Assembly (NCBI GenBank): GCA_029570205.1
Contig: JAKQSI010000097.1
Span: forward strand, 1-15,879
Reading direction: 5' to 3'
Length of the DNA: 15,879 nucleotides
Source of the DNA: Candidatus Omnitrophota bacterium
Lineage (GTDB): Bacteria > Hinthialibacterota > Hinthialibacteria > Hinthialibacterales > JAKPRU01
A model generated the notes under the pieces. That model worked only from the letters and a program-made list of their open reading frames with translations. It had not been told where the DNA came from and searched no databases. Below, piece after piece: positions 3,154-10,347 of the stretch (position 1 is the first letter of the stretch; each line of letters begins with the position of its first letter). The position numbers were made by a program, and so were the translations under genes.

Positions 3154-4323
3154 ATGGCATCAACAGTCTATTTTGGAAGCGCCCGCCAGGCGCAACTTGT
3201 TCCCGAAGAAACGCTTCCTTTCAAGCTGGAGCGCATCATCGAAAAACTGCAAATCCGCGATCGCGTGAAAGATGAGGTGGTTGCGATCAAAATGCACCTG
3301 GGAGGAAATGTCGGTTATTCTACGATCCATCCGGTTTTTGTGCGGAGGGTGGTGGACGCCGTGAAACAAGGCGGCGGGAAACCCTTTGTGTGTGATCTCT
3401 CCCGGGCGGTGTTGACGGCACACACCCGTGGGTATACGGCGGAGACGGTCGGATGCCCCATCGTTCCGACGGATGGGCCGAATGAAAAGTATGTCTATTG
3501 GTACGAACGTCCGTTTATGAATATCGACCGCTGGGGAATGGGCGGGTTCATGCACGATGCCACATTCCTGATCGACCTCGCGCATATCAAGGGGCATCCG
3601 AGCTGCGGCTTCGGCGGGTGCATGAAAAATCTTGCGCTTGGGGGATTTGTCTATGAAACGCGCGGCAAGATTCACGATACCAGTCATCACAAAAAATACT
3701 GGTTTGCGGAAAAGTGCCCGGATGATGCGATCCGAAAGAAGATCATCGAGGGCTGCCCGCTTAACGGGATTATCGAAGACCGGAACGATCCGAGAGAACT
3801 CCATCTGCACGTTGAGAACTGCAATCAATGCAAACGCTGCCTGAACATCGCCCCGCAAGGCTCCCTGGAGATTCGGCCCGATACGTTTGCAGCATTTCAA
3901 CAGGCGTGTGCGATCGCGGTGGACATTGTATTATCGACCTTTGCCCCGGAAAAGCGGGTGTTTCTGAGTGTCGCGAATCAGCTGACGGCGGTCTGTGATT
4001 GTTTCGGATTTACGGGGATGTCGGTTCTGCCGGATATCGGCGTGTTCGGGTCGGACGATCCGGTTGCCATTGAAACGGCCGTTTTGGATAAGGTCGCCGA
4101 GTTGAAAGTGATTCCGGAGAATCTCCCCCGCTGCATGGAACATCAGCCGAATGCGGGGCATCCGTTTCAGCAGATTCATGGGCCGTACAAAGACCCATAC
4201 ATCATGGTCAGAGAATGTGAGAGGCTGGGTCACGGCACAACGGATTATGAACTGGTGGATATCATGCCGGTGAGAGAAAGCGGCGTGATGGACACCTTTA
4301 TTGATACCAGCGACGCGGCATAA
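3154..4323 (+). CDS. DUF362 domain protein with partial iron-sulfur motif
   Basis: The protein has 389 residues, taking ATG 3154 because GGAG at 3141-3144 is 9 bases upstream; an in-frame ATG at 3139 lacks a good ribosome site. It has the DUF362 layout: KMHLGGNVGYSTIHP near residue 47, then KGHPSCGFGGCMKNLALG (about 146-163), a ferredoxin-like cysteine cluster CNQCKRC (C223, C226, C229), and VFGSDDPVAIETA near 297. In a full [4Fe-4S] motif a fourth cysteine would follow after three residues before a proline; here that position is A233. No signal peptide is seen, so it is probably cytoplasmic. DUF362 proteins are inferred redox or metal-cluster proteins with no agreed reaction. The oxidoreductase gene follows 100 bases downstream on the same strand. 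Confidence 0.88.
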   Translation: MASTVYFGSARQAQLVPEETLPFKLERIIEKLQIRDRVKDEVVAIKMHLGGNVGYSTIHPVFVRRVVDAVKQGGGKPFVCDLSRAVLTAHTRGYTAETVGCPIVPTDGPNEKYVYWYERPFMNIDRWGMGGFMHDATFLIDLAHIKGHPSCGFGGCMKNLALGGFVYETRGKIHDTSHHKKYWFAEKCPDDAIRKKIIEGCPLNGIIEDRNDPRELHLHVENCNQCKRCLNIAPQGSLEIRPDTFAAFQQACAIAVDIVLSTFAPEKRVFLSVANQLTAVCDCFGFTGMSVLPDIGVFGSDDPVAIETAVLDKVAELKVIPENLPRCMEHQPNAGHPFQQIHGPYKDPYIMVRECERLGHGTTDYELVDIMPVRESGVMDTFIDTSDAA

Positions 4324-4423
4324 GAGCGCCTTTTCGATTGACAAAACGCGATTGGAGTGCAAGCATTCCGCCCTGGAAAAACAATTCCTGTTTCGAAAAT
4401 CTTTTTGTCGGCAGGTGTGCACT

Positions 4424-5722
4424 ATGAAAAATCTCAGCAAACTTTTATCTAGCCGCAGGTCTGTTTTGAAAGGCATTACCGCTACAGCGTTGACCGCGCC
4501 GTTTATCGTGCCTTCCACCGTGCTGGGAGCAGGAGATCGTCCCGCACCCAGTGAACGAATCACCATTGGTTCGATCGGCGTCGGGGGCAGGGGAACCGAC
4601 GTGATGAAAAGTTTTTTGAAACATCCCGAGGCACAGGTTGTAGCAGTCTGCGACCCGTTTCGGAACCGGAGGCTGGAAGCCTGTGAAATTGTGGATACGT
4701 ATTACGAACAAAAAGGCTGCAAGGATTACAACCATTTCCGTGACCTTCTCGCTCGCGACGATATTGACGCGGTCTGTATCGCCACACCGGATCATTGGCA
4801 TGTTCTGATCGGCATCGCCGCCGCCGAGGCAGGTAAAGATATGTATGTGGAGAAACCGCTCAGCCTGACACACGCCGAAGGGCGTGCGATATGCGATTCG
4901 GTGAAAAAGCATAAACGGGTATTTCAGCACGGCACTCAGCAGCGTTCCGATGCCAAGTTCCGACTTGCCTGCGAATTGGCCCTGAACGGGTATCTCGGCG
5001 AGCTGAGGGTGATCGAAGTCGGTTCTCCCGCCAGTGGGGAACTCGAAATGCAGCCGGAAATGCCCATTCCGGAAGGATTCGACTACGATCTCTGGCTCGG
5101 CCCTGCGCCTTGGAAACCGTATACCGAAAAGCGGTGCATCACTCCTTACTGGTATTACATTTCGGATTATTCTCTCGGTTTTATTTCCGGGTGGGGTATT
5201 CACCATATCGACATCGCCCAATGGGGCAACGGAACCGATGATACCGGCCCGGTTGAAATTGAGGGTGTCGGCGTGTTCCCCAAAGGCGGTCTCTGCGATA
5301 CCGCAACGGCGTGGATTGTGGAGTTGAAATATGGGAACGGTGTAACCTGCATTTTCGCCGATGAGAACCGGTATGAACATGGCATTCGATTTGTCGGCAC
5401 GAAGGGCTGGGTGCATGTGCGCCGATCTGCCATCCGATCCGTTCCTGAGAATCTGATTCAGACAAAGATCGGCCCGAATGAGATTCATCTGTACGAAAGC
5501 AAAGATCATCAGGGCAATTTCCTGGAATGTATCAAGACACGGAAAGAGACCGTTTGCCCCGTGGAAACCGCACATCGTTCCATGGCCATCAGCTGCCTGA
5601 GCCAGATCGCAATCCTGCTCAGACGAAAATTGGAGTGGAATCCCCAAAAGGAACGATTTGTGAATGACCGAGAGGCCAATCGCATGTTGGCCCGCGAAAT
5701 GCGCAGCCCGTGGCATCTCTAA
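4424..5722 (+). CDS. Tat-exported Gfo/Idh/MocA family oxidoreductase
   Basis: This is a 432-residue NAD(P)-dependent sugar or polyol dehydrogenase-like protein. The start at ATG 4424 is supported by AGG at 4413-4415 and because it opens a twin-arginine signal: S-R11-R12-S-V-L-K followed by a hydrophobic stretch to about residue 35. The nucleotide-binding fold begins at ITIGSIGVGGRG (46-57). The family motif EKPLS is at 143-147, HGTQQRS is near 169, and WGIHHIDIAQWG spans about 257-268, where the catalytic histidine and aspartate are expected. This matches the secreted Gfo/Idh/MocA group abundant in planctomycete-like and candidate-phylum bacteria. The substrate cannot be read from sequence. 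A TTGACA at 4338-4343 lies in the 100-base upstream gap but has no clear partner -10 box. Confidence 0.92.
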   Translation: MKNLSKLLSSRRSVLKGITATALTAPFIVPSTVLGAGDRPAPSERITIGSIGVGGRGTDVMKSFLKHPEAQVVAVCDPFRNRRLEACEIVDTYYEQKGCKDYNHFRDLLARDDIDAVCIATPDHWHVLIGIAAAEAGKDMYVEKPLSLTHAEGRAICDSVKKHKRVFQHGTQQRSDAKFRLACELALNGYLGELRVIEVGSPASGELEMQPEMPIPEGFDYDLWLGPAPWKPYTEKRCITPYWYYISDYSLGFISGWGIHHIDIAQWGNGTDDTGPVEIEGVGVFPKGGLCDTATAWIVELKYGNGVTCIFADENRYEHGIRFVGTKGWVHVRRSAIRSVPENLIQTKIGPNEIHLYESKDHQGNFLECIKTRKETVCPVETAHRSMAISCLSQIAILLRRKLEWNPQKERFVNDREANRMLAREMRSPWHL

Positions 5723-6015
5723 TCTTGGATAATTGAAATCCCGGGTGGGTAACGGGTTTCCCTGCAGGAAGAATGAGGAAAGAACCCAAGGGGCCGGGCG
5801 CACAACCGCGCTTCGACACCGTGCAGCGTGTGTGCGCAGCCCAGGAGGCTTCGGCCCCTGCCGCCCGATCCGATGAGTCCGATCCGAATGGTCCGATTCG
5901 GGTTATCCGCCGCTTCGCAGGAAGTCGGCCCGACATACCCGCGATTGGCAGTCAACCCCACAGCGACTGCCGTGCCCATTTCCAAAAAATCCCTTCGGAT
6001 GAATTGACCCTTCAT
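5719..6015 (-). pseudogene. Truncated Gfo/Idh/MocA oxidoreductase, N-terminal fragment
   Basis: Reading leftward from ATG 6015 (AGGAG 6 bases upstream), the first 60 or so residues form a Tat signal, FIRRDFLEMGTAVAVG, then a Rossmann start TIRIGLIGSGGRGRSLL. This is the normal beginning of a secreted Gfo/Idh/MocA enzyme. A weak continuation (HGVEARLCA, comparable to a GVEVVAVCD-type strand) takes it to about residue 75, after which the frame is unrelated sequence and stops at 5719. A full enzyme would need about 400 residues, so more than 300 are lost. It is not a recent copy of the intact neighbour, because the signal peptide and fold sequence differ. The two genes meet tail to tail with a 4-base overlap, suggesting a deletion or rearrangement here. 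Confidence 0.75.
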
Positions 6016-6150: not shown

Positions 6151-6693
6151 TCAAAGCGGGGTTCGAACTTCTTCTCTGCCCACCCCGGAAGCGCCCTTGG
6201 GGACCAACCGGTAAATTCCGCCCACGCTCTGGACCCCGTTGCTGGCATCATACGGTGAACCGTACGCATGAGCCGGTCCTACACCCATCAGCAACGCCGC
6301 CGAGGAACCGCGAAAACTCTCTCCTACGCCGGGAAGCAGCTTGGCAGTATCCTCGGACCATTTAAACGGTTCAATATGAATCAGCCCGCCGTGCAGAGAT
6401 CTCGTTTCCGGCGTGTTCTTGAATACGTCCCACATCGGATGTGAGATGTATGCAACGGGCGTAGTTAGCCCGTTATGAGCATTGGAGTAATCGCTGTGCA
6501 TGACGTTCATATTGTTGTCCAATGCGTACATAAAACAGGCTTCCGCCAGCGCTTTCTCCTCCGAGACGCATTTGGAGACCTTGGCACGGATCTGTGCATT
6601 CAGGAAATTGGGCACAGCGATGGCGGCGAGTATTCCGATGATCGCGACAACGATGAGGAGTTCGATCAACGTAAATCCGGATTTGTGGTGCAT
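6151..6693 (-). CDS. Type IV pilin-like / type II secretion pseudopilin-like protein
   Basis: This 180-residue protein has a class III signal: short basic leader MHHKSG, prepilin peptidase site G6|F7, then TLIELLIVVAIIGILAAIA with the conserved glutamate at mature position 5 (E11). Downstream, NFLNAQIRAKVSKCVSEEKAL continues the N-terminal helix in the manner of the pilin-like proteins that are highly multiplied in Sumerlaeota, Hydrogenedentota and similar phyla. The C-terminal globular part (SHPMWDVFKNTPETRS onward) is not recognised beyond this. A strong GGAGG (6701-6705 on the complement) lies 7 bases before the start. It is alone, with no secretion or pilus assembly genes nearby, so it is probably one of many stand-alone pilin-like genes. 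Confidence 0.9.
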   Translation of the reverse strand: MHHKSGFTLIELLIVVAIIGILAAIAVPNFLNAQIRAKVSKCVSEEKALAEACFMYALDNNMNVMHSDYSNAHNGLTTPVAYISHPMWDVFKNTPETRSLHGGLIHIEPFKWSEDTAKLLPGVGESFRGSSAALLMGVGPAHAYGSPYDASNGVQSVGGIYRLVPKGASGVGREEVRTPL

Positions 6694-6785: not shown

Positions 6786-6912
6786 ATGGTATCTTATGTC
6801 TGTTTTCTGTAAGATCACGGGCACGTTCTTCAAATTCGGACGGACATGGAACCCGGCGCAAGTGTTCAATCTGCCCTATCCGAAATGAGCGAGATTTGGG
6901 GTACGGGTCGCT

Positions 6913-9900
6913 TCATTCTACCCGTTTAAACCCGGAGTTCAGCAGACCGGCAACGCTGCTTGGATGTTCTCCTCGCGTTGTGTATGGCGGCTTGTCTCCC
7001 TGGGCGCGATATCGAACAATGCCGACATAGGGCGGAGACATCTGCGGATACCGGAAGGACTCGGGTTCCTCGGCCAGCTTGCGCATCGCCTTGATCGCAC
7101 CGGCGCGGATCAACTCCCCCGCTCGGGCGGGCGAGAGATGCACAGCGCTCAGCTTGGCGCGACGGTATTCCTCGGTACTGAGATCCTCCAGTCCGTCCGG
7201 GAGCAGACCGCGTTTGACCGACACAGTAACCACGCCCGGGGTAAGCGCTTCCGCCTCTTTCGTAAAAGCCTCCTCACCACAGGCCAGAATAGTGGGAACA
7301 CCCAGTTCCATCGCGCAAAGGGCCATTTGTCCGTATTCCCCCACAGACAGTCCGTTAATTGTATAGTCGATTACATTATGGCTTCCCGTGTGGGTCATAT
7401 GCGAGTAGGAGGTCCCGGCCTTGGCGTGCTGGCCGACAATGGCGTAGGCATCGAACGAACGATCCAGCCCCCAAGGCCATATCGGACTTGTATGCCCGCG
7501 CTGCAACTGCGCACGCGCGTCCAGAAGTTCCGGGTCGATTGCGCCGTGGCCATGGCCATCCACCACGATGACTTCCGTCGCTCCTTCTTCAAAAAACCCT
7601 TCAATCGCAGCATTGGCCTCCTCCGTAGTCAGTCGCTTTCCTTTCTCATAGTATCGACCCTCCGGTCCTACCCAATCCTCCACATTCATCACCCCAGCGC
7701 ATCCCTCCATGTCGGTCATCAGCATGATTTTCATTTTTTTGTGCTTTCCCTCAGTTTTTGGAATCGGTTGTGGATCATGACTCGCCGCCGAAGTCGTACC
7801 GTGGGAGTCCACTTTCAACAACCACACCTCCGACAGTCGCGAATGCTGACGCCAGTTCAAATGTTCTTCGCCTGTGGGCGTGTCCCAGGTTAAAACCAAT
7901 TTTCGGTCGCGAACGGATTCACGCGGAACATGAAACTCCTTAAATTCGCCCATTTCAACTTTACCGTCTACGGTGGGATTGACGCGGACGCCATCTACTT
8001 TCAAAAGCAACTGACCGTATCCTGTAAGTCTCACCATGTATGTCCCATCGGGGTCTAACCCTTCGTAGACAACGCCCAGCGGCCAATTCATGCTGGTCTG
8101 CCAGGATAGTCGTGCCCGACTTTTTCCTTCGTCCCACCACCAGAATGTCGGTTCCGGGTGCGCTTCTTCTCCCGGTTCGGTTGTAACTTCCTCACAGCGT
8201 AATACATGAGGCGATTTCGCCGTGTTTCCGACATCATCATAGTAGCTGCCGGGGCCGGGGCATTCCCAGGAGGCAATCACATCCAGGCGTCGGCATTTCT
8301 CCTCTTCGGAGTTGAATGCGCGAATCTTCTTGAACTCGTCCTCAAGCCACCAGCGGTTGTTCAACGGGTAGTCGATAAAATCAAGAAAAGCGCCTCGTTC
8401 CGCGCCGCTGGCGTGATATTTCTCTACACTCGTCTGAAGTCCACAGGATTGGAATAGTTGTTCGCAAAGATCGACTATTCGCGCTCGTAATTCCGGGCTG
8501 ACAGGATCGGTGACCGCGCGGTTCAGCGCCGTCATGGCATCCGTCATAGCCGCATCGGCTCCACGTTGACCGCAGTCGGCGAGAATGCGGTTGGCCTCCT
8601 CTTCCAGTTGCATCTCGTTAATCAAACGATGCCGCGTATAGGCATCGTAATACGCACGCACAAGACACATCTGCCAACGCCAATTGCCCGCCAGGTCGGG
8701 CATTTCTTTCTCAAGTTGTTGCCAGTAGAGAAGTGTGCCCTCGACCGATCCGTTGTGGATAAGCGGTCCGCGCCAGTTCTTTTCCAGAGCGAGGATTCCA
8801 TCCGCCGCTTTTTCCTCTACACGGGGATCGAAAAACACACGCGCATACTCCACCAGAATATCACGGACCTTTGTTTCCGGGTCCCAGCTCCGCGCACTCC
8901 AGATCGTTTTGTTTACATCATCATGCACCCCATCCGAGTAGGAGATAAATCCGTCGCTGTATGGAGCAAACCAATTATGAATGTAAGCGTATTGAGTGGG
9001 ACGGGGATTGATAGCCTCTCGTCCGAGAGTGAGAGCATACGCCTGGTCCCACCAGGGAACGGGGTATTGACAGATTTTGTTGTGCGTAATGTCCGGATAG
9101 AGCCGGTACTTGTACTTCTCAGGCAGCATCTTGCGGACTATGGGAATCGGGGGGCTGGACGGGCCGCCGACCAGTCCGCCCAGCCAATCAGGAGACTGCG
9201 TGTTGATGGAATCGAAAATTTCAGTGATCTGTTTGGCATTGAACCATTGCAGCGAAAGCCACACGCGGGCATTCGGATGAATCGGGAGTAACCGTTTGGC
9301 GATATCTTCGAGGAACGGAAGCACCAATTCCGGCGGATTGTGCCCCGGATCGCCACCGGGAAAGAACACCCCGGTGAGTTCAGGACAGTCTCGGTACAGT
9401 TCCTCGTGTTTGTCTAACGCCTCTGCGCGGGCTTTCCTGTCGCGGAGATCGTATTCCGCAGGTGTCCAGACCCAGTAATCCAGGCCGTAGCGCGCGCAAA
9501 TCTCGCTCATTTTCCGATTCATTTCACGGCGGGGCACTTTCATCACGGGCGTCTCGCGATCATCCTCGAAAGGAATATTTTCTACGCTATTGATCCCGAA
9601 GAAGGCGAGTTCCCGGATGTATTGATCAAATTGCTCGACCGTCCAGGCGTCCCATGAGTTCGCCTGTGCGCGATAACCCAGCTGATGGCCGCGAATGGGA
9701 TACGCCGGTGCGGTGGCGATATCCAATGTGGAAGAGAAAAGCGCCCGGTCTTTGCCCCAGTCCAGGTGGCGGAGGAAAGCGCCGACAGCGTACAAAACAC
9801 CGCGCTCATCCGCGCCGATCAGCCATACGACGGGCACGGAAGATTGGGATGTGTCCACACACAGGCGGTATCCTTCCGGTCTGCATTCAGGAAGATTCTG

Positions 9901-10278
9901 CCCCTCACGCGCAAGGATATTCCGACCGTCCAACACACCGGGTGTGCGATTGGTCAGAACGATAACAGGTCGGTCGACGGGCCACGTGTTTACAACGGTC
10001 CATTGGATCCCCGTGTGTTTCTCCACTTCTTCCCGGAGAACCTGTGCCGCCGTTGATTCCGCTTCGTTTTCTCCCACGAGGATCACGGCCTTGCTCAAAT
10101 CAATCGTTTTTGCCCAGGAAGGACGTTGGGACATCCCGAAAATCAAAAGCAGGAAAAAGGAAGATATAACAAGAGCACGATAGACCCGCACCTTCTTCTC
10201 TACCGGTTGATTATCGGAGGATTGCATCGTTTCCGGCCACGGCAGGACAAAGCGTTGTTTTGTTGAGTGGGATTCCAT
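6913..10278 (-). CDS. Exported glycosidase-like protein joined to an M55 D-aminopeptidase
   Basis: The frame gives 1121 residues from ATG 10278 (GGAG 6 bases upstream; an in-frame ATG at 10290 has no good ribosome site). A membrane signal or anchor lies at about 34-52. Residues 57-185 look like the small N-terminal alpha/beta domain found before GH20- and GH67-type barrels (IVLTNRTP, LIGADERGVLYAVGAFLRHL). Residues 192-500 look like a glycosidase barrel (RGHQLGYR, FFGINSVENIPF, VFFPGGDPGHN, YPDITHN, FAPYSDGFISYSDG), family uncertain. A helical region and a beta-sandwich-like region (about 690-830) follow. Residues 849-1121 are a complete M55 peptidase. Numbered from M849, its metal ligands D8, E10, H61, H103 and E133 and H115 line up with Bacillus DppA (D8, E10, H60, H104, E133; H115 as proposed nucleophile). 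M55 enzymes release D-amino acids such as D-Ala from peptides. The junction is a seven-A run, so this may really be two coupled genes. Confidence 0.85.
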   Translation of the reverse strand: MESHSTKQRFVLPWPETMQSSDNQPVEKKVRVYRALVISSFFLLLIFGMSQRPSWAKTIDLSKAVILVGENEAESTAAQVLREEVEKHTGIQWTVVNTWPVDRPVIVLTNRTPGVLDGRNILAREGQNLPECRPEGYRLCVDTSQSSVPVVWLIGADERGVLYAVGAFLRHLDWGKDRALFSSTLDIATAPAYPIRGHQLGYRAQANSWDAWTVEQFDQYIRELAFFGINSVENIPFEDDRETPVMKVPRREMNRKMSEICARYGLDYWVWTPAEYDLRDRKARAEALDKHEELYRDCPELTGVFFPGGDPGHNPPELVLPFLEDIAKRLLPIHPNARVWLSLQWFNAKQITEIFDSINTQSPDWLGGLVGGPSSPPIPIVRKMLPEKYKYRLYPDITHNKICQYPVPWWDQAYALTLGREAINPRPTQYAYIHNWFAPYSDGFISYSDGVHDDVNKTIWSARSWDPETKVRDILVEYARVFFDPRVEEKAADGILALEKNWRGPLIHNGSVEGTLLYWQQLEKEMPDLAGNWRWQMCLVRAYYDAYTRHRLINEMQLEEEANRILADCGQRGADAAMTDAMTALNRAVTDPVSPELRARIVDLCEQLFQSCGLQTSVEKYHASGAERGAFLDFIDYPLNNRWWLEDEFKKIRAFNSEEEKCRRLDVIASWECPGPGSYYDDVGNTAKSPHVLRCEEVTTEPGEEAHPEPTFWWWDEGKSRARLSWQTSMNWPLGVVYEGLDPDGTYMVRLTGYGQLLLKVDGVRVNPTVDGKVEMGEFKEFHVPRESVRDRKLVLTWDTPTGEEHLNWRQHSRLSEVWLLKVDSHGTTSAASHDPQPIPKTEGKHKKMKIMLMTDMEGCAGVMNVEDWVGPEGRYYEKGKRLTTEEANAAIEGFFEEGATEVIVVDGHGHGAIDPELLDARAQLQRGHTSPIWPWGLDRSFDAYAIVGQHAKAGTSYSHMTHTGSHNVIDYTINGLSVGEYGQMALCAMELGVPTILACGEEAFTKEAEALTPGVVTVSVKRGLLPDGLEDLSTEEYRRAKLSAVHLSPARAGELIRAGAIKAMRKLAEEPESFRYPQMSPPYVGIVRYRAQGDKPPYTTRGEHPSSVAGLLNSGFKRVE

Positions 10279-10347
10279 TTTTCTCTCCATTCCGATTACT
10301 TTTCAATCTGCTCAGATGCCGGATACTCGGCGCCTGAGACACCGCAA

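Follow-up and report, generated by a model that had tools for sequence, protein, structure and literature searches.

The locus considered here raises the question of whether a glycosidase-like module and a peptidase M55 module are truly joined in one protein, or whether their apparent fusion depends on a single base within a run of seven A residues. The two modules are encoded on the minus strand of the window, that is, the whole stretch of 15,879 nucleotides analysed in this work, which comes from the 131-contig draft genome of a Candidatus Omnitrophota bacterium. A previous, sequence-only reading had proposed three options, namely a true fusion, a coupled gene pair with a sequencing error, or a slippage site; only the first of these withstood the comparison with the congeneric genome G001 reported below.

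The fused gene maps to positions 6913 to 10290 of the minus strand, where translation of the window from 10290 down to 6913 gives a single frame that stays open for 1125 codons (1125 aa). Re-reading of the minus strand from 7743 to 7726 returned CAC AAA AAA ATG AAA ATC, in agreement with the junction sequence and with the placement of the A7 run and of the ATG given earlier. The run (positions 7734 to 7740, minus strand) takes in the first base of the M55 ATG, and the re-reading also bore out that, with one A fewer, the upstream frame ends at an immediate TGA overlapping the M55 ATG. AAAAAAATGA occurs once in the window against 0.08 occurrences expected, and the A7 runs in the window number 2 against 3.3 expected, hence they are not enriched. 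As for the ATGA at the junction, it arises trivially wherever Met precedes a codon with A in first position: the fusion gene has 26 in-frame ATG codons, and 10 of them are part of an ATGA.

On the same strand, some 220 bp beyond the 3' end of the fusion gene, positions 6151 to 6693 encode a type IV pilin-like protein with an N_methyl motif. Further on, a 98-aa ORF (5719 to 6015, minus strand) opens, by eye, with a Tat-like leader, after which a Gfo/Idh/MocA-type Rossmann fold begins; it has no Pfam match and no further domain. This ORF, which looks like a remnant, converges on a complete Gfo/Idh/MocA gene at 4301 to 5722 (plus strand).

The two modules and their structural relatives

Residues 33–60 of the translation (KKVRVYRALVISSFFLLLIFGMSQRPSWA; positions 10111 to 10194, minus strand) form a probable export signal or signal anchor, with a helix predicted at residues 31–53. 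They are followed by a glycosidase-like module (residues 61–828; positions 7807 to 10110, minus strand), assigned on the basis of a Pfam GH20b match (5.9e-07) and of a fold match. Specifically, the module is laid out as a GH20b/GH67N-like N-terminal domain, an alpha/beta barrel, a helical part and a C-terminal beta domain. In VIA-align comparisons, residues 61–828 matched GH115 alpha-glucuronidases with Z scores of about 20–22 (4c91_B, Z 21.8 and rmsd 14.2; 4zmh_A, Z 20.8 and rmsd 7.5), nearly tied with GH84 rows (Z 18–20), and a hexosaminidase chain was also matched; GH67 and GH20 enzymes were among the Foldseek matches of this half. The fold shared with GH115 (4c91, 4zmh), GH84, GH67 and GH20 enzymes thus extends over the whole of residues 61–828, including the C-terminal beta domain, whereas sequence identity to the GH115 chains is about 10–12%. 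No Pfam match to GH115 or to any other catalytic domain was obtained in the N-terminal half encoded in the window. Because Pfam detects GH20b alone in this half, and GH67N in some homologues, the term glycosidase is a fold-level statement.

The family to which the N-terminal half belongs is multi-copy: some twelve paralogues or more occur in a Hydrogenedentota-labelled genome and several in that of the window, and members were seen in G062, G013, G012 and G000 (C20, C100 and C42). In the profile libraries used, no named family corresponds to these GH115/GH84/GH67-like proteins.

The peptidase M55 (DppA-like) module lies at positions 6916 to 7734 of the minus strand (residues 853–1125). From its ATG to the end there are exactly 273 residues, and PF04951 matches them with an E-value of 6.9e-49 (167 bits against a cut-off of 25); both the count and the match sustain the earlier description of a complete, full-length M55 domain starting at this ATG. 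DppA has the metal ligands D8, E10, H60, H104 and E133, together with H115. The corresponding residues of the M55 module are D8, E10, H61, H103, E133 and H115, as had been noticed before for D8, E10, H115 and E133, and they are invariant in 24 aligned sequences, including the stand-alone M55 proteins L070–L073. In addition, residues 853–1121 superimpose on 1hi9_A with Z 30.2 and an rmsd of 1.9 over 239 residues (VIA-align).

The M55 module therefore has in common with Bacillus subtilis DppA (PDB 1hi9) the full-length domain, the five metal ligands plus H115, and the fold. Nevertheless, it belongs to a divergent group, with 30% identity to DppA and a score of 106 against a cut-off of 430 for the NCBIfam DppA equivalog. 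Moreover, DppA, which is cytoplasmic and decameric, is a stand-alone protein, whereas the M55 module described here makes up the C-terminal half of a fusion that is probably exported. At L080 and L082, in genomes of the sample around a Lentisphaerae-labelled genome, two or three M55 genes lie in tandem.

The structure model shows the helix at 31–53, the folded module at 61–828, a low-confidence stretch at 830–849 and the folded M55 module. The low pLDDT of the linker is weak evidence of disorder, since the linker is covered by three sequences only. In the folding alignment, rows with M55 only had their first ~30 residues in the wrong place, which probably lowers the confidence at residues 863–879.

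The frame across the junction in congeners and stand-alone homologues

The fusion was found in all three genomes of the genus that were compared, with open frames of 1129, 1142 and 1129 codons and no inner stop. The two congeners, G001 and G002, are metagenome-assembled genomes, and their orthologues (84% and 97% identical, with frames of 1142 and 1129 codons, respectively) are fused over the full length. G002, a separate assembly, also carries the A7 run. In G001 the junction reads CGC AAG GAA ATG AAA ATC, with the homopolymer broken (AAGGAAATG), while the frame and the linker length are unchanged and no indels separate it from the window; the slippery run is therefore not conserved among orthologues. 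It follows that no homopolymer error can create the G001 fusion, and a sequencing error or a conserved slippage site becomes very unlikely, given that G001 is fused in frame without such a run. The view that the outcome hinges on one A finds no support for the same reason. An alignment of homologues had been proposed as a check, and it revealed both congeners fused with a linker across the junction, one of them lacking the homopolymer.

Over residues 827–852, the window and G001 differ by 11 synonymous and 7 non-synonymous changes, with no indel in 26 codons. The resulting dN/dS of ~0.09 is like that of the flanking domains (0.095 and 0.07), and the neutral expectation for the linker codons is rejected (P about 6e-4). 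In addition, the surroundings of the gene differ in G001, where positions 6910 to 10123 of the window are all that aligns, whereas G002 is collinear with the window over 11.4 kb. This difference indicates that the fused frame has been kept as a unit.

The inter-domain linker (positions 7735 to 7806, minus strand; residues 829–852) lies past the end of the stand-alone homologues. All 19 stand-alone homologues of the N-terminal half (38–69% identity; 16 from other genera and 3 paralogues in the same genus) share a conserved EVWLLK-like end and have their stop no more than about six residues from it; in the fusion this end corresponds to residues 821–826, some 24 codons ahead of the M55 Met. Consistently, the structural match to GH115 enzymes ends at residue 828 and the DppA match begins at 853. 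Related M55 proteins elsewhere are stand-alone, and most of them start at the homologous Met. The same modules, but each as a separate gene, are found in L040 of genome G013, a homologue of the N-terminal half (69% identity over residues 30–826), and in the M55 homologues L070–L073 (64–66% identity). No M55 gene was detected in the 20 kb around L040, and no homologue of the N-terminal half within about 1.5 kb of L070–L073. Throughout the flanks examined, no homologue of the N-terminal half adjoined a stand-alone M55 gene, nor the reverse, so that an intermediate split state was not found.

Taken together, the ends of the N-half homologues, the end of the GH115 match and the starts of the M55 proteins indicate that the fusion crosses ~72 nt of former spacer or inserted DNA, rather than an overlapping stop and start. 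The ATGA had previously been interpreted as a coupled-gene overlap; this is contradicted by the upstream homologues, which end ~24 codons earlier, and by the three orthologues, which stay open. In neither set does the upstream gene end at the downstream start codon.

In conclusion, at the level of sequence, a single frame is kept in three genomes, its linker is codon-constrained and the M55 active-site residues are intact. On these comparisons the gene is a single continuous fusion, and the A7 run is to be regarded as incidental coding for Lys-Lys-Met, since G001, a close relative, has the fusion and no such run.

Alternative readings of the junction

It might be argued that the fusion is made and that ribosomes also start at the internal ATG, yielding a second, cytoplasmic M55 protein and thus a dual location. 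We consider this unlikely. The ATG does occupy the position at which stand-alone M55 genes start, and it is preceded by a moderate Shine-Dalgarno-like purine stretch (-6.1 kcal/mol in the window, -4.9 in G001). However, the site ranks third among 24 in-frame ATGs of the gene and ninth among 26 in G001, and the five stand-alone M55 genes checked have stronger sites, from -6.9 to -10.5 kcal/mol.

A programmed or phase-variable slippage site, giving both the glycosidase alone and the fusion, is extremely improbable, even though seven A's stand in a row and the +1 frame meets a stop at once: G001 lacks the run, and A7 runs show no enrichment. Furthermore, in a reporter study of E. coli RNA polymerase (PMC6260861), runs shorter than seven T's or eight A's gave no detectable slippage, and poly(A) gave none of the deletion type. 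The E. coli threshold of eight A's exceeds the A7 run, and by analogy it may also apply to the window's organism.

Finally, it is scarcely credible that the locus holds two coupled genes with an ATGA overlap, joined because sequencing or assembly got one base of the A run wrong: a homopolymer does sit at the junction, where one A fewer brings a TGA over the ATG, but G001 is fused without it, the separately assembled G002 has A7 and is fused, and the overlap has no counterpart among the upstream stand-alone homologues, whose ends lie ~24 codons before it.

Distribution, origin and significance of the fusion

Among 14 genomes of the phylum, the fusion was seen in the three of this genus and nowhere else, and it was not seen in samples of 387, 68 and 297 genomes around Lentisphaerae-, Hydrogenedentota- and Acidobacteria-labelled genomes, respectively. 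Among about 830 genomes sampled, the architecture was seen in this genus only. No M55 frame longer than 486 codons was present in the Acidobacteria-labelled sample, no relative was found in viral contigs, and plasmids gave M55 matches only, all below 60% identity. Our search found no open-access paper combining 'glycoside hydrolase' and 'peptidase M55'.

One further candidate fusion, an M55 domain within a 1051-codon frame (L098 of G354), was rejected: its upstream part is low-complexity, Arg/Pro-rich and unrelated to the N-terminal half, and looks like a spurious long frame. G354 has a second long M55 frame, of 710 codons.

In the trees, each half of the three fusions forms one clade (support 1.0) nested among stand-alone relatives. 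The N-terminal halves group with L040, a stand-alone protein from the same class (support 0.99). The M55 halves group with the stand-alone L070–L073 (support 0.88), which come from the sample around the Lentisphaerae-labelled genome. On the simplest reading of these trees, two genes with separate inheritance were fused once, and the M55 part may have been acquired by lateral transfer.

All the above makes it very probable that the fusion is genuine and was made once, in the ancestor of the genus, from a secreted glycosidase-like gene, a linker and a complete M55 gene. A secreted GH115/GH84/GH67-like glycosidase gene would have lost its own stop codon, and the linker, leading in frame into an M55 D-aminopeptidase-type gene, would stem from about 24 codons of inserted or previously non-coding DNA. 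The product would be one exported polypeptide carrying two independently folded enzymes on a flexible tether, which could attack adjacent bonds in a glycan-peptide substrate outside the cytoplasm. Specifically, the N-terminal module would work on the glycan, and the M55 module would trim N-terminal residues, D-configured or other, off peptides that are still attached or already released. We infer both the export and the catalysis of either half. The earlier suggestion that the M55 half is exported only if fused fits this gene, because most of the closest stand-alone M55 proteins have no leader and start at the homologous Met; as a general rule it fails, since the M55 proteins L016 and L017 have hydrophobic leader-like N-termini of their own.

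A more elaborate arrangement can be imagined, in which a secreted two-enzyme machine would consist of a DppA-like M55 ring with a GH115-like glycosidase on each subunit, accompanied by free cytoplasmic M55 from the internal start, so that one gene would serve two compartments; we regard this as a long shot.

With the genuine fusion as the preferred reading, the seven-A junction is settled and poses no frameshift puzzle. The gene is an example of a rare architecture, kept in one genus, in which M55 follows a GH115/GH84-like module in the same protein; mechanistically, this rare domain combination is ordinary. The pairing also gives a hint that M55 proteins of this group may work outside the cytoplasm, on a substrate composed of glycan and peptide.
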